22,791 nt of DNA from Pseudomonadota bacterium (lineage in GTDB: Bacteria; Pseudomonadota; Gammaproteobacteria; Steroidobacterales; Steroidobacteraceae). Both the position numbers and the translations under genes were made by a program. The stretch covers positions 1-22,791 of the forward strand of contig JAJXYU010000133.1 of assembly GCA_021780395.1 (NCBI GenBank), read 5' to 3'. Every line of letters begins with the position of its first letter. The first letter of the stretch is position 1. The notes under the pieces were generated by a model, which ran no database searches, was not told the origin of the DNA, and saw only the letters and a list, made by a program, of their open reading frames with translations. Positions 911-22,064 of the stretch are shown here, piece by piece.

Positions 911-939
911 CGTCGCAACCACGGAGCGACTCCTCGCGG

Positions 940-2517: not shown

Positions 2518-2523
2518 ACGCGC

Positions 2524-3774
2524 ATGCGTCATTCGATCGTCTCGCTGCTCCTGAATGCGGCGACGGGCCACCGGCGCTGGCCGCGGATGTGGCGCGACCC
2601 CGAGCCGCGGCCGCATTACGAGGCGATCGTCGTCGGCGGGGGCGGGCACGGCCTCGCGACCGCCTACTACCTCGCGAAGGCGCACGGCGTGCGCGACGTC
2701 GCGGTGCTCGAGAAGGGCTGGATCGGCGGCGGCAACGTCGGACGCAACACCACGATCATCCGGTCCAACTACCTGTTGCCGGGCAACGTCTCGTTCTACG
2801 AGGCGTCGCTGAGACACTGGGAAGGGCTCGAGCGCGAGCTCAACTTCAATGCGATGGTGAGCCAGCGGGGCGTGCTGAACCTCTATCATTCGGATGCGCA
2901 GCGCGATGCGATCGTGCGTCGCGGCAACGCGATGCGTCTGCACGGCGTCGATGCGGAGCTCCTCGATGCGCACGAGGTCCGGCGGATCGCGCCCTTCCTC
3001 GCGATGGACGATGCGCGCTTTCCGATTCGCGGCGGACTGCTGCAGCCGCGCGGCGGAACCGTGCGGCACGATGCGGTCGCGTGGGGCTACGCGCGCGCGG
3101 CCGACCGTCTCGGCGTCGACGTGATCCAGCAGTGCGAGCTCCTCGGCTTCGAGATCGAGCGCGGCCGCGTCGTCGGGGTGCGCACCAGCCGGGGCCGGAT
3201 CGGCGCGCGGCGGATCGGCCTTGCGTGCGCGGGCCATTCCTCCCAGGTCGCGGCGCTCGCGGGGCTCACGCTTCCGATCGAGACGCACGTGCTGCAGGCC
3301 TTCGTGAGCGAGGGGGTGAAGCCGCTGATCCCGGGCGTGATCACCTTCGGCGCGGGACACTTCTACGTCAGTCAGTCCGACAAGGGCGGGCTCGTGTTCG
3401 GCGGCGACCTCGACGGCTACAACTCCTACGCGCAGCGCGGCAATCTCCCGACCGTCGAGGACGTCTGCGAGAGCGGGGTCGCGATGATCCCGGCGATGAG
3501 CCGGCTGCGCCTGCTGCGTTCCTGGGGCGGCCGGATGGACATGACGATGGACGGCTCGCCGATCATCGATCGGACGCCGATCGAGGGGCTGTACCTGAAC
3601 GCGGGCTGGTGCTACGGGGGCTTCAAGGCGACACCGGCGTCGGGCTGGTGCTTCGCGCACCTGCTCGCGACCGGGGAGAGCCATGCGCTCGCGCGCGCCT
3701 ATCGCCTGGACCGCTTCGCGACCGGGCACCTGATCGACGAAAAGGGGCAGGGCGCACACCCGAACCGGCAATGA
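2524..3774 (+). CDS. soxB: sarcosine oxidase, heterotetrameric, beta subunit
   Basis: A 416-residue FAD/FMN subunit of tetrameric sarcosine oxidase, the cytoplasmic enzyme that oxidises sarcosine to glycine and passes the one-carbon unit to tetrahydrofolate. The dinucleotide-binding motif VGGGGHGLATAYYLAK spans residues 37-52, after the family's typical N-terminal stretch with LLNAATGHRRWPRMWRDPEP. GGTVRHDAVAWGYAR (178-191) matches the segment in which the corynebacterial beta subunit carries covalent FMN on a histidine, which here would be His182. The C-terminal SWGGRMDMTMDGSPIID and GWCYGGFKATPASGW blocks are typical of the family. Length is normal. The gene lies 6 bases after the methyltransferase stop and 13 bases before soxD. 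Confidence 0.95.
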   Translation: MRHSIVSLLLNAATGHRRWPRMWRDPEPRPHYEAIVVGGGGHGLATAYYLAKAHGVRDVAVLEKGWIGGGNVGRNTTIIRSNYLLPGNVSFYEASLRHWEGLERELNFNAMVSQRGVLNLYHSDAQRDAIVRRGNAMRLHGVDAELLDAHEVRRIAPFLAMDDARFPIRGGLLQPRGGTVRHDAVAWGYARAADRLGVDVIQQCELLGFEIERGRVVGVRTSRGRIGARRIGLACAGHSSQVAALAGLTLPIETHVLQAFVSEGVKPLIPGVITFGAGHFYVSQSDKGGLVFGGDLDGYNSYAQRGNLPTVEDVCESGVAMIPAMSRLRLLRSWGGRMDMTMDGSPIIDRTPIEGLYLNAGWCYGGFKATPASGWCFAHLLATGESHALARAYRLDRFATGHLIDEKGQGAHPNRQ

Positions 3775-3787
3775 GCGAGCGCGACCG

Positions 3788-4066
3788 ATGAGGATTCCCT
3801 GCCCGTTCTGCGGCCTGCGCGGCCACGAGGAATTCGTGGTCGACGGGGACGCGACCGTGACCCGACCGGCGCCGGGCCGGCCGGACGCCCCGACGGCGGC
3901 GGTTCGCTTCGTGTACCTGCGCGACAACCCCGCGGGCTGGCACCGGGAATGGTGGTTCCACGCGTTCGGCTGCGAGCGCTGGATCGTCGTCGAGCGCGAT
4001 ACCGTGACGCACGCGGTCGGCCGCGTGTGGAGCGCGGGCGACCCGGCGCCCGGGGAGGATCGGTGA
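3788..4066 (+). CDS. soxD: sarcosine oxidase delta subunit
   Basis: A 92-residue small subunit. Cys5, Cys8, His58 and Cys62 (in MRIPCPFCG and FHAFGCERW) match, with a one-residue shift, the four zinc ligands known for the delta subunit of heterotetrameric sarcosine oxidase (Cys6, Cys9, His59, Cys63, from memory of the structure). The subunit is structural, binds zinc and caps the alpha subunit. The stop codon TGA at 4064-4066 overlaps the GTG start of soxA in the sequence GTGA, so the two are probably translationally coupled. Confidence 0.95.
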   Translation: MRIPCPFCGLRGHEEFVVDGDATVTRPAPGRPDAPTAAVRFVYLRDNPAGWHREWWFHAFGCERWIVVERDTVTHAVGRVWSAGDPAPGEDR

Positions 4067-7047: not shown

Positions 7048-7612
7048 GTCGCCGTCCGCGCCGTCGATCGCGCGCGTCCGCATCGGCGAGGCGCCGAGCC
7101 TCGCGCGCATCGATCTCGTGTCATCGGCGCGCCGCGTGGCGGCGCTCGGCGCGGCGTTCGCGGCCGCGACCGGCGTCGCCTTGCCGTGCACCGGGCGCAG
7201 CGTGCGCGCCGGGGAGTTCACCGTGCTCGCGCTCGCTCCGGATCGCTGGCAAATCGAATCCGAGGGTCCACCGGGGCACGCGATCGCGGCGCTGGGCGCG
7301 ATCGCCGGCGAGTCGGGTTCGGTCGTCGATCAGTCGGACGGGTCGCGTGCGTTCGACGTCGCCGGCCCGGGCGCGCGTGAGGTACTCGCGAAAGGCGTGC
7401 CGATCGATCTCGACGCCGCGGTGTTTCGCGTCGGCGACGTCGCGCGCACGGGGGTCGCGCTGGTCGCGGTCACGCTGCGCTGCCTGTCCGCGGAACCGTC
7501 GTTCCGGATCGTCGTCGCGCGCAGTTACGCGGAGTCCTTCCTCGAGTGGTTGCTCGACGCGGGCGCCGCATACGGGGTCTTGCGCGAGCGCCACAGCGCG
7601 TCGCCGAGGTAG
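7040..7612 (+). CDS. soxG: sarcosine oxidase gamma subunit
   Basis: A 190-residue protein that begins with GTG at 7040, overlaps the soxA stop by 8 bases and ends with TAG at 7610-7612. Size, last position in a soxBDAG order, and segments such as IARVRIGEAP, FDVAGPGAREVLAKGVPIDL, RVGDVARTGVALV and RSYAESFLEWLLDAG fit the SoxG family, which has a GcvT-like fold without catalytic function and packs against the beta and alpha subunits. Sequence conservation in this family is low, so the assignment leans partly on context. The final 88 bases are shared antisense with the 3' end of rarD. Confidence 0.9.
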   Translation: MAESPSAPSIARVRIGEAPSLARIDLVSSARRVAALGAAFAAATGVALPCTGRSVRAGEFTVLALAPDRWQIESEGPPGHAIAALGAIAGESGSVVDQSDGSRAFDVAGPGAREVLAKGVPIDLDAAVFRVGDVARTGVALVAVTLRCLSAEPSFRIVVARSYAESFLEWLLDAGAAYGVLRERHSASPR

Positions 7613-8442
7613 AGCACCACACCGCCCCAGACGAGGCCGAAGCCGATCGCGCGATCGCGCCCGAAGGATTCGTGATAGAGCCAGACGCCAAGTGCCAGCA
7701 CCACGGTCGGCATCAGGTACTGCAGGATGCCGAGCAGGGACAGCGGAATGCGCCGCGCCGCGGCCGCGAACAGCAGCAGCGGGATCGCGGTCACGGGTCC
7801 CGCGGCCATCAGCGCGAGCCGCAGCCCCCAGCCCCCGCGCAGGAACGCGTCCGCGCCGTGGGAGCCTTCCCACGCGAGGTAGGCGAGCGCGAGCGGCAGC
7901 AGCGCGGCGGTCTCGAGGGTCAGGCCCTCGAGCGAACCGAGCGGCGCGGTCTTGCGCATCAGACCGTACAGCGCGAAGCTCAGCGCGAGCGACAGCGCGA
8001 TCCACGGCAGGTGTCCGGCCACGATCGCCATCCACGCGACGCCTCCGGCCGCGATCGCGACCGCGATCCACTGCGCGGGTCGCAGGCGCTCCGACAGCGC
8101 GACGGCGCCGACGACGACGCTCATCAGTGGATTGATGTAGTAGCCGAGGCTCGCATCGACGACGTGCCCGGTGTTGATCGCCCAGATGTAAAGACCCCAG
8201 TTGTTCGCGAGCAGGAACGCGCTCAGCGCGAAGCGGGCGACGATCGATGGCCGCTCGCGGACCGCGCGCAGCCAGGTGAAGTGCCGCTTGACGAGGAGCA
8301 CCAGGGTGAGCAGCACGAGCGACCAGACCATCCGGTGGGCGAGGATCTGCAGCGGCGGCACGCTGATCAGCGCCTTGAAATACAGCGGGAACAGGCCCCA
8401 GAGCAGATACGCGCCGAGCGCGTAGGCGACGCCCCAGTTCAT
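7525..8442 (-). CDS. rarD: RarD-type EamA/DMT permease
   Basis: A 305-residue inner-membrane protein with about ten hydrophobic segments and two EamA-like halves. The start MNWGVAYALGAYLLWGLFPL and the segments PLQILAHRMVWSL, NWGLYIWAINTGHVVDASLG and YYINPLMSVVVG are hallmark RarD sequences (drug/metabolite transporter superfamily, chloramphenicol-sensitive protein type; real substrate unknown). ATG 8442 is preceded by GAGGTG (complement of 8448-8453), a good ribosome-binding site at five bases; the in-frame GTG at 8448 is less likely. The C-terminus after LYLGDALWRSRK is a polar tail that overlaps soxG antisense. A plausible -10 box lies at 8528-8533. Confidence 0.92.
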   Translation of the reverse strand: MNWGVAYALGAYLLWGLFPLYFKALISVPPLQILAHRMVWSLVLLTLVLLVKRHFTWLRAVRERPSIVARFALSAFLLANNWGLYIWAINTGHVVDASLGYYINPLMSVVVGAVALSERLRPAQWIAVAIAAGGVAWMAIVAGHLPWIALSLALSFALYGLMRKTAPLGSLEGLTLETAALLPLALAYLAWEGSHGADAFLRGGWGLRLALMAAGPVTAIPLLLFAAAARRIPLSLLGILQYLMPTVVLALGVWLYHESFGRDRAIGFGLVWGGVVLYLGDALWRSRKTPYAAPASSNHSRKDSA

Positions 8443-8527
8443 GATCACACCTCGCGGTTCGAGTCGGGGCGCGGGTCGCGGCGCATCCGTCGCGGGCGCG
8501 CGATCACCGGGCCGGTGGCGGCGCGGG

Positions 8528-8533
8528 AGTATA
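8528..8533 (-). promoter_or_regulatory. possible -10 box (TATACT) for rarD
   Basis: On the minus strand, TATACT (within GGGTATACTCCC) is five of six to the sigma-70 consensus. It stands about 86 bases upstream of the rarD ATG, in the intergenic space shared with the divergent transporter. No good -35 match is visible. Confidence 0.35.
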
Positions 8534-8562
8534 CCCGAGATCCGGCGCGTCGATGAGTCCGG

Positions 8563-8568
8563 TATCAT
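8563..8568 (+). promoter_or_regulatory. possible -10 box (TATCAT) for the DMT transporter
   Basis: TATCAT in GGTATCATCGCGCG lies 41 bases before the proposed GTG start at 8610 and faces away from the rarD box. The -35 region is not recognisable. Confidence 0.35.
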
Positions 8569-8609
8569 CGCGCGACCATGCGTGCAATCGACCCGACGAG
8601 GGGCGTACC

Positions 8610-9482
8610 GTGACCCGCGATCACGTCGGTCGAGGCATCGCGCTCGGGGCCCTCGGCTACACGCTGTTCGCGATGCACGACGCGGCGACCAAGTGGCTCG
8701 TCGAAACGATCCCGGTCTGGCAGATCCTGTTCTTCCGCAGCGTGCTGATCGTGCTCGGCTGTACCCTGATCGGGCGCGGCAGGCTGTGGCGTCGGGTGCT
8801 CACGTCGCCGAACCGCGGGGCACTGACGCTGCGCGCGGCGCTGGTGCTGATCGCCTGGCTCGCGTATTACACCGCGGCGCGGACGCTCCCGCTCGCGCAG
8901 CTGCTGACGCTGTATTTCGGCGCCCCGGTGGTCACGACGCTGCTCGCGATGCCGCTGCTCGGCGAGCGGGTCAGCGGCTCGCGCTGGGTCAGCGTGCTCC
9001 TCGGCTTCACCGGGGTGCTGATCGCCGCGGAGCCGTCCCGGATCCACGCATCGCGCGCGACCGTGCTCGTGCTCGCGGCCGCGGTCACCTGGGCCTACAC
9101 GGTGATCCTGATGCGGCAGATCGCGAAGCGCGAATCCTCGCTCGTGCAGGTGCTCGCGCAGAACCTGTTCTACCTGGTGGTCACCGGCGGCCTGTCGCTC
9201 GCGACCTGGGTCCCGCCGCGAGGCGCGCAGTGGTGGCTCCTGCTGCTGGTCGGTGTGCTCGGAGGCGCCGGGCAGTTCTTCCTGATCGAAGGGGCGCAGG
9301 TCGCGCCGGCGGCGATCATGGCGACCGTCGAGTACACCTCGCTCGTCTGGGCGTTCGTGCTCGGCTACCTGGTGTTCGGCAACGTCCCGCGGCGCCCGGT
9401 GTGGATCGGCGCGGCGCTGATCCTGCTGTCGGGATTCTTCATGCTCTGGCGGGAGCGCCGGCGCGTGTTCCGGGAGGATTAG
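8610..9482 (+). CDS. EamA/DMT family transporter
   Basis: A 290-residue inner-membrane protein with about ten transmembrane helices and the two-EamA-repeat layout. Typical pieces are GALGYTLFAMHDAATKWLVE at the first helix, PVWQILFFRSVLIVLGC, LAQLLTLYFGAPVVTTLLAM, GERVSGSRWVSVLLGFTGVL, the second-repeat AAAVTWAYTVILMRQIAKRE and APAAIMATVEYTSLVWAFVL. The chosen start is GTG 8610, with GAGGGG at 8598-8603 six bases ahead; an earlier in-frame ATG at 8553 would add a polar, non-conserved N-terminus. The substrate is unknown; relatives export amino acids, metabolites or drugs. Its stop overlaps the convergent radical SAM stop in the sequence TTAG. Confidence 0.9.
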   Translation: MTRDHVGRGIALGALGYTLFAMHDAATKWLVETIPVWQILFFRSVLIVLGCTLIGRGRLWRRVLTSPNRGALTLRAALVLIAWLAYYTAARTLPLAQLLTLYFGAPVVTTLLAMPLLGERVSGSRWVSVLLGFTGVLIAAEPSRIHASRATVLVLAAAVTWAYTVILMRQIAKRESSLVQVLAQNLFYLVVTGGLSLATWVPPRGAQWWLLLLVGVLGGAGQFFLIEGAQVAPAAIMATVEYTSLVWAFVLGYLVFGNVPRRPVWIGAALILLSGFFMLWRERRRVFRED

Positions 9483-11392
9483 CGCCGCGGCACCGCGGGA
9501 GGCCCCGGCGGCGCCGATGCGCGCGCGGGCAGGATGAGCTCGAAATGCCGCATGTCGGGCGCGAGCCATTCGTGCAGCGTCTCGGCGACCTCGATCGAGA
9601 TCCGGTCGCCGAAGTCGGCGAGCTGGCGCAGCATCCGGCGCAGCTGCGGCACGTCGACCTCGCGCGCGTCGAACACCCGCAGGTGCAGCTTCGACGGGGT
9701 CGCCGCGAGGAGCGCCCGCAGGTGACGTGCGGCGCGCGCGAGCTGGCGGCGGCCGCGCCCGGCCTGCACCGAGAGCGTCAGCACCGGGACGCCGCCGGTT
9801 TCGCGGCGCTCCGTGAGGGCGAGGCGTGCGCGATCGCGGGATCGCGAAATGGCGGCGCTCAGGCGCGCGATCTGGGCCTCCCACGCGCGCGGTGACGCGG
9901 CCTCGGCGTGTCCGAAGTGCCGGTCGACGAAGTCGCGCATCGACAAGCCGACGATCCAGTCCGAGATCGCGATCGGAATTCGCCCGGGCGAGCGCCACGG
10001 GACGGATCGCAGGAACCAGCCGATCCGCCGCGGCCCGCCGCGCAGCAGGCCCTCGCGCGCGAAGCGCAGCACAATCCGCGTCGCCGCGACCGGTCCGTAG
10101 CCCGTGCCGGCGCTCGAGTGGCCGAGATCGCGCATCTTGTTCGCGATCCGCGTGGCGATTGCCGCGTCGGTCAGCAGCCGCCGGTAGAGCCGGCGGTACT
10201 CCGCGACGAGCCTCTCGTAGCTCATGTTCAGTGGCACGACGTTGGTCGCGAGCTTGGTGTTGTCGCATTCCGCCGCGTGCTCGCGCAGACGTCCGGCGCG
10301 CTCGAGCCGTTCGTGCAGCGGCGTCCGCGGCAGCGCGTTCAGCAGGCCGATCATCGCCGCCTGGATCCCGGAGCGCATGATGAACTCGTACTGCCGATCG
10401 AAGGTCGCGACGGTGTCGTTGTCGAAGCCGACGATGAAGCCCGCGAGCACCTCGATGCCGTTCGCGTGGATCCGCCGGATCGCTGCCAGCGGATCCTCGC
10501 GCAGGTTCTGCAGCTTGCGGGTCTCGCGCAGGCTCGCGGGATCTGGCGACTCGATCCCGATGAACACCCACTGCAGGTTCGCTGCGCGGAACAGCGTCAT
10601 CAGTTCCGCATCGGACGCGAGATTGATCGATGCCTCGGTGCCGAAGCGGAACGCGTAGCGATGCTCGCGCTGGTACGCGGCAAGGTAGCGCAGCAGGGTC
10701 TTCGCGACCTTGCGGTCGCCGATCAGGTTGTCGTCGACGAAAAACACGTTGCGCACGCCGAGCTCGCGCAGCCGGTCGAGCTCCCGCCCGATCTGCTCGG
10801 GCGCCTTGTGGCGCGGCTTGCGGCCGAACATCACGATGATGTCGCAGAACTCGCACAGGTACGGACAGCCGCGCGAGAACTGCATGGTCGCGGTCGAGTA
10901 CCGCTCGAGCTTCAGCAGGTCGAAGCGCGGCACCGGCGAGTCGCGCAGGTCCACCGTCTGCGCCTCGCGATACAGTGGCTCGGGCCGGCCCTGCTCGAAG
11001 TCACGGCAGAACCGCGGCCAGATCGACTCGGCCTCGCCGCAGACCACCGCGTCGGCGAGCTCGGCGTAGCGCTCCGGGCACAGCGATGCGAAGCTGCCGC
11101 CGGCGACCACGAAGTGGCCGCGCTCGCGGTAGTAGCGCAGCAGCTCCTTCTGGCGCGCGAACTGCACGCCCATGCCCGCGACCCCGATCAGGTCGACGTC
11201 CGGGGACAGCGGGACCGGCTCGACGTTCTCGTCGACGATCGTCACCTGCCAGTTCGGCGGGCACAGCGCCGCGAGCGTCGCGAGGCCGAGCGGCGGGTTG
11301 ATCGCGGCGTCGCTCGCCCGGGCGAGCCGCACCCCCCAGCGGAAGTTCCAGAAACTCTCCGGCGAGCGCGGGTTGATCAGGAGGAGGCGCAC
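9479..11392 (-). CDS. B12-binding domain radical SAM protein (DUF4070-type) with extra C-terminal region
   Basis: A 637-residue protein. Residues 1-140 look like a degenerate cobalamin-binding Rossmann domain (LLLINPRSPESFW, INPPLGLATLAAL, VTIVDENVEPV, LIGVAGMGVQFAR, VVCGEAESIWPRF). The radical SAM motif CPYLCEFCD gives the cluster ligands Cys176, Cys180 and Cys183. It is followed by FFVDDNLIGDRK, RFGTEASINLASD, FIGIESPDPASL and GFIVGFDNDT, all usual in B12-dependent (class B type) radical SAM enzymes. The section to about residue 500 resembles the DUF4070 region of HpnP-like enzymes. The rest (about 530-620) is an additional region I do not recognise. Members may methylate unreactive carbons; the substrate here is unknown. 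The start is GTG 11392 without a clear ribosome site. The gene is monocistronic and divergent from the SDR gene. Confidence 0.85.
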   Translation of the reverse strand: MRLLLINPRSPESFWNFRWGVRLARASDAAINPPLGLATLAALCPPNWQVTIVDENVEPVPLSPDVDLIGVAGMGVQFARQKELLRYYRERGHFVVAGGSFASLCPERYAELADAVVCGEAESIWPRFCRDFEQGRPEPLYREAQTVDLRDSPVPRFDLLKLERYSTATMQFSRGCPYLCEFCDIIVMFGRKPRHKAPEQIGRELDRLRELGVRNVFFVDDNLIGDRKVAKTLLRYLAAYQREHRYAFRFGTEASINLASDAELMTLFRAANLQWVFIGIESPDPASLRETRKLQNLREDPLAAIRRIHANGIEVLAGFIVGFDNDTVATFDRQYEFIMRSGIQAAMIGLLNALPRTPLHERLERAGRLREHAAECDNTKLATNVVPLNMSYERLVAEYRRLYRRLLTDAAIATRIANKMRDLGHSSAGTGYGPVAATRIVLRFAREGLLRGGPRRIGWFLRSVPWRSPGRIPIAISDWIVGLSMRDFVDRHFGHAEAASPRAWEAQIARLSAAISRSRDRARLALTERRETGGVPVLTLSVQAGRGRRQLARAARHLRALLAATPSKLHLRVFDAREVDVPQLRRMLRQLADFGDRISIEVAETLHEWLAPDMRHFELILPARASAPPGPPAVPRR

Positions 11393-11456
11393 GGTGGGGA
11401 TTCTGCGGCGTCGGCGGCGCGCTCGAATTGATTCCGATCAGTAATCCGCCGCGGCT

Positions 11457-11462
11457 TATAAT
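11457..11462 (+). promoter_or_regulatory. -10 box (TATAAT) of the SDR gene
   Basis: A perfect TATAAT stands out in very GC-rich DNA, 50 bases before the ATG at 11507, in the divergent gap between the radical SAM and SDR genes. The -35 region is poor: TTGATT at 11428-11433 is 23 bases away, too far, so the promoter may depend on an activator. Confidence 0.5.
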
Positions 11463-11494
11463 CCGACCGCTGCGCGAGCGCGCGTGGCGTCCGT

Positions 11495-11502
11495 GGGAGG
11501 AG
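11495..11502 (+). promoter_or_regulatory. strong ribosome-binding site of the SDR gene
   Basis: GGGAGGAG ends four bases before ATG 11507 and fixes that start codon. Confidence 0.7.
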
Positions 11503-11506
11503 TGCG

Positions 11507-12268
11507 ATGGATCCGGCGGGTAAGACATTCATCGTGACCGGCGCGGCCCGTGGGATCGGGCGGGCGATCGCGCAGCGGCTCGCGAGCGGCGGCGCGAATC
11601 TCGCGCTGATCGATTTGAACGCCGCGGACCTCGACGGCTCGCTCGAGGCGTGCCGCGCGGGGGGCGGCGGCGCGCGTGCTTATGCGGCCGACGTCGCGCG
11701 CGAAGCGGACGTGATCGAGACCGTGGCGCGGATCGCGACCGACTTCGGTCGGATCGACGGACTCGTGAACAACGCCGGCATCGTGCGCGACGGCCTGCTC
11801 GTGAAGGTCCGCGACGACGGCGGCGTCGACCGACTGCCGCTCGCGCAGTGGCAGGCCGTGATCGACGTGAACTTGACCGGTACCTTCCTGTGCACGCGCG
11901 AGGTCGCGGCACGGATGGCGGAATCGCGCGCGGGCGGCGTGATCGTGAATCTGTCGAGCATTTCGAGGTCCGGAAACGCGGGCCAGAGCAATTACAGCGC
12001 GGCGAAGGCCGGGGTCGCCGCGATGACGGTCGTCTGGGCGAAGGAGCTCGGCCGGCACGGCATTCGGGTCGGCGCGGTCGCGCCCGGCTTCGTGCGGACC
12101 GAGATGATCGCCGCGATGCGTCCGGCGCTCCTCGAGAAGCTCGAGGAAGCGGTGCCGCTGCGTCGGTTCGCGCGTCCGGAGGAGATCGCGGAGGCGGTCG
12201 CGTTCATCGTCGCGAACGATTATTTCACGGGCCGCTGCCTCGAGATCGACGGCGGTCTGCGGCTCTAG
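11507..12268 (+). CDS. SDR family oxidoreductase (FabG-like)
   Basis: A 253-residue classical short-chain dehydrogenase/reductase, of normal length and cytoplasmic. The cofactor loop TGAARGIG is at residues 11-18, and Asp36 at the end of the second strand (ALIDLN) favours NAD(H) over NADP(H). NNAG is at 88-91, the structural Asn122 is in VIDVNLTG, and the catalytic Ser151, Tyr163 and Lys167 are in NLSSIS and YSAAK. The C-terminal VAPGFVRTEM and CLEIDGGLRL are standard. It reduces or oxidises a keto/hydroxy group; a 3-oxoacyl substrate is possible but not shown. It has its own promoter and is not part of the convergent amine dehydrogenase cluster, whose last stop it overlaps in the sequence CTAG (12265-12268). 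Confidence 0.92.
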   Translation: MDPAGKTFIVTGAARGIGRAIAQRLASGGANLALIDLNAADLDGSLEACRAGGGGARAYAADVAREADVIETVARIATDFGRIDGLVNNAGIVRDGLLVKVRDDGGVDRLPLAQWQAVIDVNLTGTFLCTREVAARMAESRAGGVIVNLSSISRSGNAGQSNYSAAKAGVAAMTVVWAKELGRHGIRVGAVAPGFVRTEMIAAMRPALLEKLEEAVPLRRFARPEEIAEAVAFIVANDYFTGRCLEIDGGLRL

Positions 12269-12924
12269 CGCCGCTCGGGACCGTGGAATCGGGCGAGGGC
12301 GGCGAGACGTCGCCGACTCGCGTCGTACCCCTCTCCGGGCACCAGCTGGCGCAGGATGAACCGGGACAGATGGGCCGCGCCGATGCTCGCGCCGCCGGTC
12401 CCGTCGTCGGCGCGCGCGCAGGCGCCGAAATGCCCGCGATCCGCATCGAGCGCCGAGATCTCGTCGGGCGCGCAGCGCGCATCGCCGGTGCCGCGGATCA
12501 CGCCGGGGTAGGCCGCCGGAAACGGCGACGGGCCGCGCGCGGGCGTCGACGCGATCAGCAGGATGCCCGCGGCCGCGGCGGCCGCGACCGCCCCCGCGAG
12601 CACGGCTCGATCTTCGCGCACCCCGAGACTCAGATGGACCAGCGCCGCATGCTCCGCGATCGCCCAGTGGATCGCGGCGGCGACGGTGGCCGCGGTCGTC
12701 GCGCGCCGCTGGTCGAACACCTGCGCGACGAGCAGCTCCGCGCGCGCCACGTCGCTCCACAGCACGCCCGCGACGCGGGTGCCATGTCCGAGCGCGTCGG
12801 CGACGACCGGATGAATCTCGACGCGCCGGCCGGCATCGACGAAGCGGCGCGTGGCGCGGGCCGCGCCGAGCGTCGCCGGATCCGCGCCGCTGTCGATCAA
12901 TGCGACGCGCCAGCCGTCAAACAC
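12265..12924 (-). CDS. qhpE: QhpE-like subtilisin (S8) leader protease
   Basis: A 219-residue S8-family protease, small and with no signal peptide. The catalytic Asp is Asp11 in ALIDSG, His is His47 in LGHGTRVAGV, and Ser is Ser180 in GTGGASIGAAHLS. In the QHNDH system the homologous QhpE removes the leader of the cross-linked gamma subunit (established for Paracoccus). The start GTG 12924 overlaps the qhpF stop by 8 bases and is the first possible start in this frame close to the catalytic Asp, so translation is probably coupled. The usual oxyanion-hole Asn (A-G-N segment) is not visible; Ser126-Thr127-Pro128 lie there. Last gene of the cluster; ends with TAG. Confidence 0.85.
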   Translation of the reverse strand: MFDGWRVALIDSGADPATLGAARATRRFVDAGRRVEIHPVVADALGHGTRVAGVLWSDVARAELLVAQVFDQRRATTAATVAAAIHWAIAEHAALVHLSLGVREDRAVLAGAVAAAAAAGILLIASTPARGPSPFPAAYPGVIRGTGDARCAPDEISALDADRGHFGACARADDGTGGASIGAAHLSRFILRQLVPGEGYDASRRRLAALARFHGPERR

Positions 12925-14638
12925 GCGAGCGCCGGTCGTCGCACCGGACCAGGGAGGCGGCGCGCAGCTCGTAGACGGCGTCGGGCGCCGGCACGCGCGC
13001 CGGCGCATGGGTGACCACGATCCGCGTGCGATCCCCGAATTGTTCGTCGACCACGTGCAGCAGCTCGACCGCGGCCGCGGCGTCGAGATTCGCGAGTGCC
13101 TCGTCGAGCACGAGCACGTCCGGATCGCGCAGCAGCGCCCGCACGAGCGCGATGCGCTGTCGTTCGCCGGTCGACAGTTCCCGGCCGTGCTCGCCGAGCA
13201 GGGTCGCGTATCCCGCCGGCAAGCCGTCGGCGATCGCCTCGACGCCCGTGCGCCGTGCGGCACTCAGCACCTCGGACTCCGGCGCGTCGAAGCGGCCGTA
13301 GCGGAGATTGTCGAACAAGGACGCGCGAAAGATCGCGGGCTCGGTCACGAGCACCGCGACCGCGCGTCGGAGCGCGCGCGCTTCGATCATCGCGAGATCG
13401 CGGCCGTCGAGCCGGATCCGTCCCGCGTCGAGCGGGACGAATCGGCACAGCGCGTCGACGAGCGTCGACTTGCCCACGCCCGAATCGCCGTGGATCACGA
13501 TCTTCGTGCCCGCGTCGATCGTCAGCGTGGTGTCGGCGAGCAGCGTTCGGCCGCAGACCGCGGCGCCGAGACGCACGCGCTCGAAGCAGAGCTCGCCGCG
13601 ACGGCGGCCGCGCGACGCGCCGGTGCGCCCCGCCAGGGACCCCGCCGGCTCGGCGGGCGCCGCGTCGGTGGCGATCCCGGCCGTGGCGGGCTCGAGGAGC
13701 TCGCGGACCCGATCGAGGCTCACGCGCGCACGCTGGTACGCGGTGACCAGGTTCAGCAGGGACACCGCCGAACCGGTGCCTCGCGCCATGTAGGCGACGA
13801 ACGCGACCAGCGTGCCGACGCTCGTCTCGCCGTGGATCACGCGATAGCCGCCGACCAGGAACACCGCCGCGGTCGCGCCGTGCGACAACAGGTTCGAGAT
13901 GCCGCCGATCGTGAAATTCAACATCTGCTGCGCGAGCAGCCGCCCGAGGTAGGCGCGGTTCAGGCGCGCGAGGCGCGCGGATTCGTGAGGTTCGGCACCG
14001 TACCCCTGGATCGCCTTCGTCGCGGCGAGCGTCTCGTAGAGGAACTGCGCGATCGCGCTGGTCTGCTCCCGCACCGCGCGCGTGCGCGCGGTGATCCACG
14101 GGCGCGCGAGGTGGCGCAGCGCGAGCTGCAACGGCAGCGCGGCGGCGGCGATCAGCGCGAGCCGCCAGCTCATGTACACCATGATCGCCGCGGTCGCGCC
14201 GAGCGCGAGCGCGCCGTTCACGAACGCGAGCACGGTATCGGTGCCGAACCGCTGGATCTCGGCGACGTCGCCGTCCAGGCGGGTCACCAGATCCCCGACC
14301 GCGCGGCGCCGCTGCAGCGCCGGCGGCAGCGACACCAGGTGCGCGTACAGATCTTCGCGCAGCGCGAACAGGACGTCGGCGGACACCCGCACGTACAGCC
14401 AGCGATTCAGCGCGCCGATCGCGAACCCGGCCGCGGCGAGCGCGAGGATCGCCGAGCACAACTGCGCGAGGCGGTGGAAGTCGTGCGCGAGCAATCCCTG
14501 GTCGACGATCTCCTTCGTCAGGTACGGTAGCGCGATCGACAGGAGCGACGCGACCACCGCGAGCGCGGCGACGCCCGCGAGCGCCGGCAGTCGCGGTCGC
14601 AGGTAGGGCCACAGCCAGCGCAGCGCGCGCGACCGCAT
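12917..14638 (-). CDS. qhpF: QhpF-like ABC exporter (fused membrane and ATPase domains)
   Basis: A 573-residue half-transporter of the ABC exporter type. Membrane helices occupy about residues 18-300 and the ATPase domain about 350-560. Visible motifs are Walker A GDSGVGKST (384-392), signature LSTGERQR (488-495), Walker B VLVLDE (508-513) and H-loop His543 in VTHAPA. The Q-loop position reads VTEPAIF, with Thr432 where Gln is usual. In the amine dehydrogenase system QhpF is the proposed exporter of the cross-linked gamma subunit, which has no signal peptide. It starts 4 bases after the qhpB stop and overlaps qhpE. By sequence alone it could be a generic lipid or peptide exporter; the QHNDH role rests on context. 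Confidence 0.88.
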   Translation of the reverse strand: MRSRALRWLWPYLRPRLPALAGVAALAVVASLLSIALPYLTKEIVDQGLLAHDFHRLAQLCSAILALAAAGFAIGALNRWLYVRVSADVLFALREDLYAHLVSLPPALQRRRAVGDLVTRLDGDVAEIQRFGTDTVLAFVNGALALGATAAIMVYMSWRLALIAAAALPLQLALRHLARPWITARTRAVREQTSAIAQFLYETLAATKAIQGYGAEPHESARLARLNRAYLGRLLAQQMLNFTIGGISNLLSHGATAAVFLVGGYRVIHGETSVGTLVAFVAYMARGTGSAVSLLNLVTAYQRARVSLDRVRELLEPATAGIATDAAPAEPAGSLAGRTGASRGRRRGELCFERVRLGAAVCGRTLLADTTLTIDAGTKIVIHGDSGVGKSTLVDALCRFVPLDAGRIRLDGRDLAMIEARALRRAVAVLVTEPAIFRASLFDNLRYGRFDAPESEVLSAARRTGVEAIADGLPAGYATLLGEHGRELSTGERQRIALVRALLRDPDVLVLDEALANLDAAAAVELLHVVDEQFGDRTRIVVTHAPARVPAPDAVYELRAASLVRCDDRRSRV

Positions 14639-14642
14639 CGCG

Positions 14643-15734
14643 TCAGCGGCGCACCAGTCGCGGCGAGGTCACCGATTGGTCGCCGCAGCCGGGCAGCCGG
14701 ATGTTCGCCTTCTCGGCGAGCGTGTCGGCGTCGAACACGGTGACGTCGCACATCGCGCCGGCCGTGTACACCTCCTTGCCGTCGGTCGAGACCAGCACCG
14801 CGTAATAGGTGTGCGGCAGGTCGACGCGCTTCTCCACGCGGTACGGATCGAGGCCGATCTTCGTGAGTTGCGTGTAGGCGCCGAACGCGGCGGGCTCGGT
14901 TGGGCTCAGCACCGTGGAGAAGATCAGCGCGGAGGTCTTCTCGACGTCGTGATACGCGAGCGCGCCGGTGCGCAGGTTCAGGGTCATCAACGAGGTCACC
15001 GGCACCGGCGCGCCGTGGCCGGCGGCCGGTGTGCGGGTGCTGTAGATCGGCGCCGCGAAGATGCCGGTCGGTTCGCTGACCGGCCAGAACGCGAGCAAGT
15101 CCGGGCGCGAGTGCCCAGGGTGGTCCCAGTGACGGATCCCGCGGGTCTCCAGTCGCTTCCCGGTCGCGATGTCGTACTCGTAGAGATCGAAGCCGAGCGC
15201 GAAGAACGTGCGATCGTTCTTGTCCGCGAGGAGCGTGTGCACGCGCCGCGGCGCGGGGAATTCGCGGACCGGCTTCGCGTGCAGGCCGGCGTTCGTGTCG
15301 AAGACCGCGAAGCGCGTCGGCTCGACCTGATATTCGCTCAGTCCGAGCTTCACCGGGACCTCGTACACGAGCATTTGCTTGCCGTCGGGCGTCACGTCGA
15401 ACGCGAACAGGCACTTCACGCGCTCGCCCGGCGAGGACAGGTCCGCGCGAAAGACTTCCTTGCCGGTGCCGAGATCGATCCCGGCGATGCTCTCCATCCG
15501 GTTCACGAGCACGTACGCGATCCGCCCGTCGGGCGAGGGCACGATCGTGCCGACCCAGTCGTGCGCGCCGGGGATCTTGAAGTCGCCGACGACCCGGCGC
15601 GCGGCCGCGTCGATCAGGAACAGCCGGTCGGGCTTGCTCCCGGTGACGATGTAGTCCTTCTTCGGCGCCGCGCTCGCCGCCTGTGCGATCGCGGGCAGCA
15701 GCAGGGCGAGCCGTAACAGGGTTTTCGGGTTCAC
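14643..15734 (-). CDS. qhpB: quinohemoprotein amine dehydrogenase beta subunit (beta-propeller)
   Basis: A 363-residue secreted protein. A signal peptide (KTLLRLALLLPAIAQAASA, cleavage near residue 22) precedes repeated propeller strands such as DRLFLIDAAARRVVGDFKIP, VPSPDGRIAYVLVNRMESIA, GIDLGTGKEVF and VSTDGKEVYTAGAMCDVTVF. The known beta subunit is a seven-bladed propeller in the periplasm that clamps the gamma subunit against the haem subunit. The start is GTG 15734 with GAGGAG (complement of 15742-15747) seven bases ahead. It follows qhpC by 25 bases. Length and gene position fit the family. Confidence 0.93.
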   Translation of the reverse strand: MNPKTLLRLALLLPAIAQAASAAPKKDYIVTGSKPDRLFLIDAAARRVVGDFKIPGAHDWVGTIVPSPDGRIAYVLVNRMESIAGIDLGTGKEVFRADLSSPGERVKCLFAFDVTPDGKQMLVYEVPVKLGLSEYQVEPTRFAVFDTNAGLHAKPVREFPAPRRVHTLLADKNDRTFFALGFDLYEYDIATGKRLETRGIRHWDHPGHSRPDLLAFWPVSEPTGIFAAPIYSTRTPAAGHGAPVPVTSLMTLNLRTGALAYHDVEKTSALIFSTVLSPTEPAAFGAYTQLTKIGLDPYRVEKRVDLPHTYYAVLVSTDGKEVYTAGAMCDVTVFDADTLAEKANIRLPGCGDQSVTSPRLVRR

Positions 15735-15759
15735 CGTGATTCTCCTCGGGGCGGCGGGG

Positions 15760-16080
15760 TCATTTCTTCGGGAAGACGGCGTCGAGCTCGCGCCAGTCGT
15801 TCTGCGCCGACGGCGCGCCGGCGTCCCAGTTCGGATAGGTGTTCAGCGTGTCCGGGACCTGCGCCGGCCACCAGCACGGATCCGAACAGCCGTACAGATC
15901 CGCCTCCATCGGTTGGCACAGCGAAGCGACGCCGCCGAACGGATCGACTTCCCAGCCGGGGTCGAAGGTCGTCGCGCAGCCGGCGACGCTCTCCATCGTC
16001 ACGACTTCCTCGACGTGCCCCGAGCGCTCGGCCTCGGTCAGGAGTTGCGCCTTGGTGTTCACGGGTTTCATGCCGCTCAT
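15760..16080 (-). CDS. qhpC: quinohemoprotein amine dehydrogenase gamma subunit, CTQ precursor
   Basis: A 106-residue RiPP-like precursor. After a 28-residue leader (from [10 protein letters not shown] to EEVVT) the cysteines fall at 35, 55, 65 and 69. Subtracting 28 gives 7, 27, 37 and 41, the positions recalled from the Paracoccus and Pseudomonas structures. The partners also match: Glu44 (16) for Cys35, Asp61 (33) for Cys55, Asp77 (49) for Cys69, and Trp71 (43) with Cys65, which become cysteine tryptophylquinone. There is no Sec signal. QhpD makes the thioether bridges, QhpG hydroxylates the Trp, QhpE cuts the leader. ATG overlaps the qhpD stop as ATGA. Confidence 0.95.
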
Positions 16081-17519
16081 GGGAGAGCCCTCCGGGGTTC
16101 GATATGGGTGCTGAGGAACTTCGGGTTCCGGGCCGCGATCTCGCCGTAGACCCTGACGCCGAAATCGACCCAGCGACGCAGCAGGTCGCAGTAGTGATAG
16201 GTGCGGTGCAGGGGATCGCCGAAGCGCGAGTACGCCTCGTGGTAACAGCCGCCGGCGCAGAGGTTGCGGATCCGGCACTTCGCGCAGTCGGTGCCGTCGC
16301 GGTCCGAGGCACGCCGCAGGAACTCGCCGAGCCGTTCGGCGTCGATCCCGCGCTCGACGTCGCCGAAGGTCGCGAGGTCCGAGCCGGCGAAGCGGTGACA
16401 CAGGTTCAAACCGCCGTTGCGATCGACCGCGAGCAAGCCGACGCCGGCGCCGCAGGGCAAGGTCTTGCGTCGACCCTCGTGCAGATCGCTGATCAACTGG
16501 TGCAGGTTCGAGAATCCGGTGTTGGCGTTGCGGATCGCCGCCGCGAGGTACGCCTCGCCGAGTCGCTCGAAGCCCGCGTGCACGCGCTCGAGCTCTTCGG
16601 GCGTGAGCGCGTGCGCGGCGTTCGCGGCCGCGGTCACCGGCGCGTAGCCGACCTCGTGGAAGCCGAGCTGCCCGCGAAGGTACGCATGGATCGCCTCGAT
16701 CTCGACGGTGCCGCGCGCGAGCGTGACCCGCGCGCCGATCGGTCGCGAGCGGTACCGTGAGAGCAGCATCGCGGCCTTGCGCTCGACGACCGCGTGCGTG
16801 CCCTTGCCGCCGACGCTGCGGCGGTTGCGGTCGTGGATCGCGGCGGGACCGTCGATGCTGATCGACAGGCCGAATCGATGGGCATCGAAATAGTCGGCGA
16901 GCGCGGGGGTCAGCAAGGTCGCGTTCGTCGTCAGGGAGAAATCGACCGATTTGCCGCGCGCCGCGGCGCGCTGCTCGGCCAGGTCGACGACCTGGCGGAT
17001 CAGCGGGACGTTGCTGAGCGGCTCGCCGCCGAAGAACACGACGCCGATTCGCTCGCGGTCCGCGGCCTGCTCGAGCAGCAGCTCGATCCCGCGCGCGGCG
17101 GTCTCGAAGGACATCCGCTCGCCGCGCGCCGGCGCTTGCACGTCCTCCTTGTAGCAGTAGGTGCACCCGAGGTTGCACCCGGTGTTCACGTTCAGCACGA
17201 TCGTGCTGAGCGGATACGCCTCGACCGCCGCGAGGCGCGGATTGATCGCGCCGCGGCCCTCGTCCGCCTGGTAGATCTCGAGCCCGGCGAGGCGATCGAC
17301 GAACGCCTCGACGTCCGCGCCGTCGAAGCGCCCGCGGAGGCGCTCGCGCAGTTGCGTCGAATCGAAATCGCCGCCGTCGCCGGTCGCGTCGATCACGGCG
17401 GCGCCGAGCTCGTCGAGCTCGAACAGCGCCGTGGTCGGCACGTGGAACAGCATCGCTCTGCCGGAGAACCGCACCACGTGCGCGTTCGCGGGATTGAACC
17501 GGAGCCTCGTCGCAGCCAT
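16077..17519 (-). CDS. qhpD: QhpD radical SAM/SPASM thioether-forming maturase
   Basis: A 480-residue cytoplasmic radical SAM enzyme that introduces Cys-to-Asp/Glu thioether bridges into the QhpC subunit. The N-terminal ~100 residues form a leader-binding-type region. The SAM cluster motif CNLGCTYCY gives Cys115, Cys119 and Cys122, followed by [16 protein letters not shown] and [15 protein letters not shown]. The SPASM region holds seven cysteines (356, 374, 412, 415, 421, 425, 444) within [32 protein letters not shown] and YHYCDL, enough for two auxiliary 4Fe-4S clusters. ATG 17519 is chosen over GTG 17558 because GGAGGAGA stands five bases ahead. The gene lies 14 bases after qhpA. Confidence 0.95.
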
Positions 17520-17524
17520 CGGCG

Positions 17525-17532
17525 TCTCCTCC
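17525..17532 (-). promoter_or_regulatory. strong ribosome-binding site of qhpD
   Basis: On the minus strand GGAGGAGA precedes ATG 17519 by five bases. It decides the qhpD start against the upstream in-frame GTG at 17558. Confidence 0.7.
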
Positions 17533-17533
17533 G

Positions 17534-19165
17534 TCAGTAGATCGGCGGCGTGTTCCACCGCTGCACGGTCACGACCAAGTGGGCCTTGCCGACGACCGCC
17601 GTCGGCCGGCCGGCGGCGCCGGGCGGAAGCGTCGCGATCACCTCGAGGTTCCCGGTGTTGTCCGCATGGAACGGGCGCTTCGGATTCGGACCCGCACCGG
17701 CCGGCAGGAAGCGGCCGCGCGAGTCGATCCGGCCCGCGAAGTCCACGTCACGGTCGTGCGCCGCCTGCGCGTCGAACGGCCCGATCGACCAGGCGACCGG
17801 GAGCGCGCCGAGGTGCACCGCCTGCGGTTTGCCCGCGGGTCCGGGGATCTCCTCGATCGCGTCGACCGCGAATTGCGCGGCGACCGGATCGATCTTGCCC
17901 CCGCCGAGGCGCGCGATCGCGTACGCCGGCGTCACGTCGAGGCGATCGACGCGGTCGTAGACCGCGACCGCGTCGGCGGCGTTCGCGCCGCCGACGCGAA
18001 CCGTGCGATAGCCCGGTGCCGCGTGCGCGGCCGCGTCGACCTGCAACACGAGCGAGGTGCGGCCGCGGTGGACCACCCGCGCGCGCAGTCCGGCGCCGAG
18101 ATCGACGCGGCCGCCGAGGTGTTCCCCGACGATCGTCACGCGCGTCGAGGTCCCGGCGCGGATCGCGCGCGGGCTCACCAGCACGATCCGGGGGGCGCGG
18201 CCGGCGCGGACCGCATCCCAGTCGGCGCCGATCTCGGCGTGATCGTCGAGGAACCAGCGCCCGCTGAGCCGCCGTCCGCCCGGCGAGGCCGCGAAGACCT
18301 CGTGGGTGGAGCGATCACCGAGCGTCGCGGTGCCGCGCCACTCGTAGCCGGTGTAGACGATCGCGTGGGATTGGCCGTCGAGCGCCTGGCCGTCCGCGAA
18401 GCGCAGGCGATAGGTCGTGCGGTACTCGTCCGCGGCGGTCCGGCGGATCTCGGCGGTTCCCCAGTACGTGCCGCGCCCGGGCTCGTCGCCGCGAACCAGC
18501 CAGCGGCCGGCGAGGTCGATCGGGGCGTGTCGCTGCCACGCGGCCCACGCGGCCGTGTGCAGCGGGAAGAGTCGGCCGAGCTCGGCGGGCACCTTCGTCG
18601 AGGCCTCGCGCCACCAATGCCGGTCGCGAGCGCCTTCCTGGTATTCGATCGTCGGGAATTCCGCGAGATGCCAGTTCGCGTTCTTCAGCCAGTCGGCGGC
18701 GTCGCGCCGCTCCAGCGCGATCCGCGCCGCCGAGTGACAGCGCGCGCACATCCGCTGCAGGTCGCCGGGCAGCGCCAAGTCCGGCACGTTCGGGCGGCGC
18801 TCGAGCGCGAAGCGCGCCGGCGCCGCTTCGGACGGCGCGAGCCCCCGGGTGTCGGCGAGGTAGCGAACGATCGTGTCGCGCGCGGTCGCCGGGAGCTGCA
18901 AGCCGTGCAGGTTTTGCATCCGGAAGATCGTCATCACCCAGCCCTCGGGCGTCTTGCGCTCGTCGCCGATGCGGGCGAGCGTGCCTTGCCGGTCCGGGAG
19001 GTGACAGGCGCCGCAATAGGTCTTCACCAGGGTTGCCCCGTCGGCCGGGCCGGTGGTCGCGGTCACGGCCGCGACCGCCCGCGTCGCGGCGCCCGCGGCG
19101 AGCACGCCCAGCAGCACGGCCAACGCCCATCCCCCCGTGTTCTCAGCTTTGCTCGTCGTGCTCAT
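17534..19165 (-). CDS. qhpA: quinohemoprotein amine dehydrogenase alpha subunit (di-haem cytochrome c)
   Basis: A 543-residue periplasmic subunit. An N-terminal signal segment ([17 protein letters not shown], about residues 11-27) ends near residue 33. Two c-type haem motifs follow: CGACH (51-55) and CARCH (140-144), as expected for the di-haem domain. The rest is beta-rich, with segments such as [20 protein letters not shown] and [18 protein letters not shown] and Ig-like strands such as [18 protein letters not shown]. The subunit passes electrons from the CTQ cofactor on QhpC to a soluble azurin or cytochrome. ATG 19165 has AGAGAGG six bases ahead. It overlaps the end of qhpG by 23 bases. 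Confidence 0.94.
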
Positions 19166-20381
19166 CGCGAACCTCTCTGGATGCTCTCGTTACCGCCGCC
19201 CGCCACACGCCCCGTGGCCAGCGAGCGCTGACCCACACCGGCCGAAGCTCGATGCGTTCCCCGTTCAACACCGGCCGGCGCTCGAATCGTCCGGCGCCCG
19301 CGTCGATCCGCGCGTTCGCGTCGACCGAGAGACGTTCGTAGTGGTCCGCGGCGGCCGCCCAAAACGGCGCGCCGGGCAGGGATCGCGCCTGTTCTCGATA
19401 GAACGTCCCCGCGGTCGCGACCGCGCGCCGCCAAACCTCGTCGCTGCGTTCGCGCACGAACCGTGCGATCGGCGTCCAATCGGTCCCGTCGAGGTAGGAG
19501 TGAATCGCCGCGACGCCGACGCGCGCGGATTGCAGGGCCTCGTGGACGCCGTGCCCGGCGAGCGGATCGAGCGCGAGCGCGGCGTCGCCGATGCGCAAAC
19601 GACCGGGGGAGGGCGCGGCGTCGGCACGGCGCATCACCGCGGCGGTCGCGCGCGCGCCGAGAAATTGCGCACGTTGCGTCGAGAACGCGTCTTCCTGCAG
19701 GGTCGCCGTCGCGGTCTCGAACCGCTCGCGCAGCTGCTCGCGGTCGAGCCGCGTCCGCGGCGCGCAGATGAATTGCCGCTGCAAGATCCCGTTCGCGTCG
19801 CGTGCGAACCAGCACCAGCCGTCGTCGATCGCGACCACCGCGCTGCCGGGACCGCCGCCCGCGGCGATCCGCCAGCGCTCGCTCCACGCGACGAGTCGCG
19901 GGCCGAGACGCTCGACGCCGCCGGATCGCCGGCCGCGCGCGTCCAGGATCGCACGACACCGGAGCGAACCCTGCGCGGTGTCGATCCGCCAACCGACGCC
20001 GGCGTCCGCGGCGATCGCGCGCGCCGCGCGGCGATCGAGACGCAGTCCCGCGAGCGCGAGATCGAGCGCCAGCGCTTCGTCGAACGCCGTCCGATCGATC
20101 GGGCATTCGCGTCCGCGCGTCGAGCGCGTGCCGGCCCAGACGCCGATCCGGGGCGCCGAGCGGCCGGCGGCGGCGGCCGCGCGCTCGAGGCCGGCCTAGA
20201 GCAAGCGTGCGACGCAGCGTTCGCCGAGGCCTTCGCTCGCCGCGGGCCGGGGTCGGCCGAGGATCGCGACGGAGTACCGTAGACGGTGCAGGCCGAGCGC
20301 CGCGGCGCAGCCCGCCGGCCCGGCGCCGAGCACGCCGACGTCGACGCTCGCGTCGGGTGCCGCGGTCAACACCGGTCGCAT
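19143..20381 (-). pseudogene. qhpG: QhpG-like FAD monooxygenase, interrupted by an in-frame TAG at 20196-20198
   Basis: Read through one TAG at codon 62, this frame gives a 412-codon flavoprotein. Before the stop, residues 14-26 hold the FAD-binding VGVLGAGPAGCAA. After it come RECPIDRTAFDEAL, CRAILDARGRRS (the DG-type motif region) and RIGDAALALDPLAGHGVHEA (the GD motif of class A flavin monooxygenases). Both halves are in the same frame, and the downstream part is open to TGA 19143-19145. QhpG dihydroxylates the QhpC tryptophan during CTQ formation in Paracoccus. After the TAG the first usable start is GTG 19838, which would yield a 231-residue piece lacking the FAD-binding fold. The likely start is ATG 20381, overlapping the synthetase stop by 16 bases (GTG 20372 also possible). 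It may be a pseudogene, a readthrough gene or a base-call error. Confidence 0.85.
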
Positions 20382-22060
20382 CCGTCCGGGGCGGACAGGA
20401 GCGATTCCATTTGCTCGCGTAGCAGGTACTTCTGCACCTTGCCCGTCACGGTCATCGGGAATTGGTCGACGAAGCGGACGTAACGCGGGACCTTGTAGTG
20501 CGCGATCCGGCCGCGACAGTACGCGACGATCTCCTCCGCGTCGCCGTCGACGCCCTCGCGCAGTCGAACCACCGCGCAGACTTCCTCGCCGTACTTCGGA
20601 TCGGGAACGCCGACGACGGCGACGTCGAGCACCTTCGGGTGATGGTGCAGGAACTCCTCGATCTCTCGCGGGTACACGTTCTCGCCGCCGCGGATGATCA
20701 TGTCCTTCACGCGGCCGACGATCGTGCAGTAGCCGTCGGCGTCGATCGTCGCGAGATCGCCGGTGTGCATCCAACCGGCCTCGTCGACCGCTTCGGCGGT
20801 ATGCTCGGGGTCGTCCCAATAGCCGCGCATCACGCTGTAGCCGCGCGTCAGGAGCTCGCCGGTCTCGCCGCGCGGGACCACGCGGCCGTCGGCGTCGATG
20901 ACCTTCGCCTGCAGGTGCGGGTGGATCCGCCCGACGGTGGACACCAGGTGTTCCAGCGGATCGCCGATCCGCGACTGGAAGCTCACCGGGCTGGTCTCGG
21001 TCATGCCGTAGCAGATCGTGATCTCGGCGAGATGCATCTCGTCGATCACGCGCCGCATCACCGTGATCGGGCAGGTCGCACCCGCCATGATCCCGGTGCG
21101 CAAGGAGCGCAGATCGAACTCGCGAAAGCGCGGATGATCGAGCTCCGCGATGAACATCGTCGGGACCCCGTAGAGCGCGGTGCAGCGCTCCTCGGCGACC
21201 GCGGACAGGACTTCGAGCGGATCGAATGCCTCCGACGGAAACACCACGCTCGCCCCGTGGGTCACCGCGCCGAGCACGCCCATCACCATTCCGAAGCAGT
21301 GGTACAGCGGCACCGGGATGCACAGCCGATCGGCCTCGCCGAGGTGGATCCCGCGGCCGACGAAGTAGCCGTTGTTCACGATGTTGAAGTGCGTCAGGGT
21401 CGCGCCCTTCGGCGCGCCGGTCGTGCCGCTGGTGAACTGGATGTTGATCGGGTCGTCGGGGTCGATGTCGACCGCGAGGTCCTCGAGCACGTGCGCGGGG
21501 ACGGTCTCGCCGAGCGCGCCGAGCCGATCGAACGGCAGGAATCGCGGCGCGACGTCGGATCCGAGGCAGATCAGCCGGCGTAGCTCCGGGAATCCGGGAT
21601 TCTCGAGCACGCCGTCGCGTCGGGGCGGCGCGGCCGCGAACAGCTCGTCGAGCATCGTGACGTAGTCGCTCGCCTTGAAGCGCGGCGCGAAGATGAGCGC
21701 CCGGCAGCCGACCTTGCGCAACACATAGGCAAGTTCGGCGGTGCGGTATGCCGGGTTGATGTTCACGAGGATGAGTCCCGCGCGCGCGGTCGCGAACTGG
21801 GTCATCACCCACTCGAGATTGTTCGGCGACCAGATGCCGATGCGCTCGCCCGGCACGAGCCCGAGCGCAAGGAGGCCGCGCGCGAGCCGATCCGCTCGGT
21901 CCAGCAGCCCCCGGTAGTCCAGGCGCACGCCCTGGTGGCGCACCACGAGCGCGGTTCGATCGGGCCAGCGCGCCGCCGCGTCGACGAGCACGCCGCCGAT
22001 GCTACGGTGAATCAGCGGCGATTCGCTGGTTCCCGATACGTAACTGCTTTCGACGCTCAT
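20366..22060 (-). CDS. AMP-binding acyl-CoA synthetase
   Basis: A 564-residue cytoplasmic adenylate-forming ligase of the fatty-acyl-CoA synthetase type. Motifs: P-loop [12 protein letters not shown] (209-220), [11 protein letters not shown] (251-261), YGMTETSP (351-358), [19 protein letters not shown] with the TGD core at 433-435, hinge region [20 protein letters not shown] and catalytic Lys541 in TVTGKVQK. It joins a carboxylic acid to CoA through an acyl-AMP. Chain-length preference cannot be read. ATG 22060 is chosen; an in-frame GTG lies directly before it, and neither has a ribosome site. It overlaps qhpG by 16 bases, so it is probably cotranscribed and may activate the acid formed when the amine-derived aldehyde is oxidised. 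No aldehyde dehydrogenase gene is in the window. Confidence 0.92.
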
Positions 22061-22064
22061 CACG

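Follow-up and report, generated by a model that had tools for sequence, protein, structure and literature searches.

The window, a stretch of 22,791 nucleotides considered here at its full length, carries genes for an amine dehydrogenase and its maturation. Among them is qhpG, the reading frame of which is interrupted by one in-frame TAG. What does a lone stop codon mean in a cluster that otherwise looks complete? The preliminary description of this DNA left five answers side by side: a very recent loss of the gene, read-through of the codon, an enzyme formed by two polypeptides, replacement by another monooxygenase, or a base error.

One in-frame TAG in an otherwise intact cluster

The plus strand of the window reads CTA at positions 20196–20198, that is, TAG on the minus strand. 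As had been reported, this triplet is codon 62 of the qhpG frame, which is read from 20381 to 19143 (Table 1). The NCBIfam model of QhpG (NF049967) matches the 61-amino-acid piece before the stop at model positions 2–47 (39.8 bits) and the 350-amino-acid piece after it at positions 50–389 (197.1 bits), and the two parts of the model adjoin. As the window reads, neither piece reaches the model cut-off of 240, whereas the frame read through the TAG passes it with 253.2 bits. The pieces are therefore one gene, in agreement with the earlier statement that both halves are QhpG-like and lie in one frame. In a comparison with solved structures, the intact QhpG of the sister assembly described below (G000) had its best match (E-value = 4.3e-40) in PDB entry 7ctq, a peptidyl tryptophan dihydroxylase.

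Table 1. Positions of the interrupted qhpG frame, its parts, and the neighbouring genes in the window
Feature	Position	Strand	Support
In-frame TAG, codon 62 of qhpG	20196..20198	-	Glutamate codon in conspecific G000 and congener G016
qhpG reading frame, 412 codons and TGA, broken at codon 62	19143..20381	-	NF049967; match to PDB 7ctq
61-codon piece 5' of the stop; dinucleotide-binding glycine motif, E50, R55	20199..20381	-	
350-codon piece 3' of the stop; first in-frame ATG, GTG, or TTG is a GTG at codon 182 (19838)	19143..20195	-	
qhpA, alpha subunit; two CxxCH haem motifs in the translation	17534..19165	-	TIGR03908, 569.5 bits (cut-off 274.35)
qhpD, radical SAM maturase	16077..17558	-	TIGR03906, 669.6 bits (cut-off 453)
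qhpC, gamma subunit; identical in G000	15760..16080	-	PF08992, 147.8 bits (over the Pfam cut-off)
qhpB, beta subunit	14643..15734	-	TIGR03907, 355.5 bits (cut-off 223.2)
qhpF, ABC exporter	12917..14638	-	PF00664 and PF00005; named by place and kind
qhpE, subtilisin-like protease; start approximate	12265..12918	-	NF049966, 207.7 bits (cut-off 165); PF00082
AMP-binding acyl-CoA synthetase, upstream of qhpG	20366..22063	-	PF00501

On the minus strand, the order of genes is acyl-CoA synthetase, qhpG, qhpA, qhpD, qhpC, qhpB, qhpF, and qhpE, which places qhpG within the qhp operon. The synthetase gene and qhpG share 16 bases, at the end of the former and the start of the latter. A further 23 bases are common to the end of qhpG and the start of qhpA, and a polar effect of the stop on qhpA is possible. 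The other qhp genes had been described as intact, and our searches bear this out: QhpA, QhpD, QhpB, and QhpE score above their NCBIfam cut-offs and QhpC above its Pfam cut-off, and QhpF is an ABC exporter, with no QhpF model over its cut-off for that gene. Among the 18 window genes checked (some with approximate starts, and the last one cut at the window end), qhpG alone has an internal stop.

The qhp operon of the literature also includes the regulator gene qhpR (PMC7876137); in a non-systematic look at the genes of 12265–22063, we noticed none. Elsewhere in the window, sarcosine oxidase genes adjoin mttB (2514–7563). Of these, soxB and soxA have Pfam support, and soxD and soxG are named by place only. 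The stretch from the congener G016 has no counterpart of soxB, and the flanks of the sarcosine oxidase block are joined there with approximately 45 bases between them; the block was thus gained or lost between the species.

Codon 62 in the closest genomes and in homologs

Although G000 is labelled as the genome of the window itself, we take it to be a conspecific, not letter-identical, sister assembly, judging by the identity of its contigs C126 (99.83 per cent to window positions 1–13660), C99 (99.65 per cent to 13642–21363), and C46 (98 per cent from 21033 on). The G000 assembly thus breaks twice inside the window. A comparison of close relatives at codon 62 had been proposed earlier, and it returns a sense codon in both genomes available: the qhpG frame of G000 is open with glutamate at this place, and glutamate is also found in the nearest congener, G016 (81 per cent protein identity). 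The search of genome contigs returned this congener and one distant match. Because G000 and G016 both have glutamate at codon 62, the stop arose on the window's side, as a single-base change that is found only in the window. The frame is thus broken in a gene that close relatives carry intact, as is expected of a pseudogene or a nonsense allele.

In the alignment column of codon 62, the 22 homolog rows have glutamate (16 rows, of which two, P0005 and L004, represent the same G016 gene), alanine (5), or aspartate (1), and a stop in none. It does not belong to the nearly invariant columns of the alignment, and the corresponding residue of 7ctq is histidine. Because alanine, aspartate, and histidine occur in homologs, glutamate is usual but not obligatory at this position of the QhpG family. 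A second difference in qhpG lies at codon 129, with valine in the window and glycine in G000 and the protein P0003; comparison with G016 assigns it to neither side. Purifying selection acts on the intact qhpG, with dN/dS = 0.32 between G000 and G016 (0.13–0.38 for qhpA, qhpB, qhpD, qhpE, and qhpF).

The gene is also retained beyond these two genomes. In a class-wide set, QhpA exceeds its cut-off in only 2 of 369 genomes, which is uninformative for co-occurrence, and we used a set of 60 genomes instead. Nine of them, G000 included, have QhpA over the cut-off, and seven of the nine, again including G000, have QhpG over the cut-off without stops. Of the remaining two, G009 has its QhpG divided over two contig ends, and in G018 the contig begins at QhpA, so that the neighbor of QhpA is not visible.

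Read-through, two polypeptides, or another enzyme

If a suppressor tRNA or natural leakiness allowed read-through of the amber codon, full-length QhpG would be made, and the tolerance of codon 62 for different residues suggests that an inserted amino acid could be accepted. We searched for the means of such decoding in G000, a 92 per cent complete sister assembly that stands in for the window's strain. None of the 38 tRNAs found there has the CUA anticodon that would read UAG, in a set that also has none for phenylalanine, tyrosine, tryptophan, or isoleucine and is therefore incomplete. The prfA model detects release factor 1 with 516.2 bits (cut-off 423.25), and the pyrrolysyl-tRNA synthetase (PylS) model reaches 21.2 bits with a cut-off of 178.15 and is thus not found. 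A stop at codon 62 recurs in no homolog row. Additionally, five genes ending in TAG had been named as an argument against general recoding, and the argument holds for the four of them compared with G016: mttB, the DMT transporter, the SDR, and qhpE each terminate after the same residue as in G016, where the stop codons are TGA, TAG, TAG, and TAG, respectively. TAG therefore ends window genes in the normal way. We consider read-through very improbable.

The proposal that polypeptides from before and after the stop jointly form the enzyme would fit two QhpG-like halves in the same frame. It is contradicted by the lack of a place to begin the second polypeptide. For 119 codons past the stop, there is no in-frame ATG, GTG, or TTG, and a start at codon 182, the first that is available, would drop residues 62–181, including the equivalents of R70, W74, E84, and R89 of 7ctq. 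Internal stops are absent from the QhpG matches listed, among which the only divided QhpG, that of G009, sits at two contig ends. Because no in-frame ATG, GTG, or TTG precedes codon 182, a split enzyme is not credible, and we give it the lowest standing of all the explanations.

A substitute monooxygenase would make the loss harmless. A QhpG-like paralogue with about 157–179 bits, below the cut-off, occurs in 13 of the 60 genomes, and one of its carriers, G018, combines QhpA with no QhpG over the cut-off (its paralogue, located elsewhere, scores 164 bits). In G000, however, the paralogue is missing: one match to the QhpG model exceeds the cut-off of 240, and the next reaches 48 bits, by which a second QhpG in the same genome is also rejected. 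Moreover, the QhpA genomes without an intact QhpG are the two with contig ends at the locus, since the G018 neighborhood is cut by a contig start. Replacement thus has hardly any more credit than the two-polypeptide scheme, and about as little as read-through. The paralogue carriers are G003, G007, G008, G010, G011, G012, G014, G015, G017, G018, G019, G020, and G030, and 10 of these 13 genomes have no QhpA over the cut-off; as a guess, the paralogue may be a LodB/GoxB-like maturase.

Taken together, no evidence favors recoding, and none favors an enzyme in two pieces or a replacement for QhpG. Low-level read-through might nevertheless suffice for activity, as a single-turnover maturase is possibly needed in small amounts only. 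That the strain carries the TAG and makes active cysteine tryptophylquinone (CTQ) enzyme, by such read-through or by a QhpG-independent route, is very improbable.

A probable recent nonsense mutation, or a base error

The reading that we consider most likely, and in which we place somewhat more trust than doubt, is a recent strain-level nonsense allele of qhpG, or a minority allele that was taken up by the assembly. If the base is real, the ribosome would halt after 61 residues, and, with no in-frame restart nearby, the QhpG dihydroxylase would presumably not be made. The remaining Qhp proteins would then yield a cross-linked gamma subunit without CTQ, and hence an inactive amine dehydrogenase. 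By analogy, a strain with this allele is expected to lack active enzyme, because disruption of qhpG in Paracoccus gives an inactive enzyme devoid of the quinone, with a gamma subunit lighter by about 28 mass units (PMC7876137).

The loss, if it occurred, would be recent. The rest of qhpG shows no decay: the equivalents of R70, W74, E84, and R89, the importance of which in QhpG is taken from PMC7876137, are still in frame 3' of the stop as R78, W82, E92, and R97 (the alignment and the text of that paper together give an offset of two between the paper's numbering and the 7ctq chain). Since the residues checked are kept in frame after the stop, any decay would be very young. With glutamate in both relatives and no other damage to the gene, the earlier suggestion of a very recent loss survives.

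Much of the same evidence would fit a mistake in base calling or in the consensus of the window assembly, with an intact qhpG in the organism. Glutamate in G000 and G016 would be expected if the window's letter were wrong, as would intact remaining cluster genes, the intact state of all six qhpG residues checked against 7ctq (E50, R55, R78, W82, E92, and R97), and retention of qhpG in relatives. The locus also assembles badly, as the G000 contigs break inside the window and disagree where C99 and C46 overlap. The final 320 bases of C99 hold 17 further differences from the window. C46 agrees with the window at 15 of 15 of these sites from 21164 on but with C99 at 21146, and over roughly its first hundred bases it is unlike both. 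These patterns suggest that the G000 data contain more than one strain.

Base-change statistics speak against a window full of errors. Below 21039, 33 positions distinguish the window from G000. With G016 as the outgroup, 14 of the changes fall on the window's side and 13 on that of G000, and six are unresolved; the six include position 19996, where G016 agrees with the window in the nucleotide alignment but its codon is an unlike serine codon. Such a balance looks like that of two real strains. With no excess of window-side changes and no other gene disrupted, there is therefore no general sign of poor sequence. Ten of the 33 differences fall in 838–1878, as mixed strains would give.

Stop-making changes account for 2.6 per cent of all single-base substitutions possible in the window genes, and the probability of at least one stop among 14 window-side substitutions is 0.30 if there is no selection. 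A lone nonsense change can therefore be accounted for without any special cause. The change does create one of the only two CTAG words in the 22.8-kb window (at 12265 and 20196), where 12 are expected from a Markov estimate and 59 from base composition. This is slightly odd for a standing allele and counts in favor of an error. The G016 stretches are likewise poor in CTAG, with two and three copies (Markov estimates of 5.6 and 10.7), as is the G388 stretch, with one (11.1). The G000 contig C99 has none, which says little because the Markov expectation there is 0.0. The scarcity is curious and decides nothing.

We therefore rank a base error second to a nonsense allele: it is a real contender that we hold to be distinctly the less probable of the two, and, with a sense codon in the conspecific and in the congener, the earlier mention of it stands.

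Searches for truncated products elsewhere gave little. The 61-amino-acid product had no match at E <= 0.001 in the protein search, in which clustering could hide one. The 231-amino-acid piece expected from the restart had 15 proteins among the matches listed, of which the closest is 66 per cent identical. Neither product was a separate protein among the matches listed, where clustering could again hide such entries. The intact copy P0002 lies beyond the length range of the 231-amino-acid search, so that its absence there is meaningless, and it represents three member sequences, among which there could be a truncated one. A qhpG nonsense allele was mentioned in no title or abstract start among the literature matches listed; one in print is still possible.

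If the allele is real, the strain would be a naturally occurring qhpG null mutant in which the rest of the cluster is complete, and it would offer a system for asking whether the gamma subunit is produced and exported when it is left unmodified. More generally, the case advises a look at a sister genome before an isolated stop codon in a single assembly is put down to recoding.

Among known systems, the gene resembles QhpG of PDB entry 7ctq (PMC7876137) in its match to NF049967, the glycine motif, the checked flavin-site and channel residues, and its place in the qhp operon. It differs from that enzyme in the stop at the position of 7ctq residue 54 (numbering of the paper, offset two) and in that, as read, no full-length product is encoded. 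The change itself is either a commonplace mutation of recent date in this strain or a base error, and not a new reading of the code. Strain-specific nonsense alleles occur in bacterial genomes, and the arginine decarboxylase of Chlamydia is reportedly a case. Like them, the putative window allele involves one base change in a gene that is otherwise undecayed and is intact in sister genomes.
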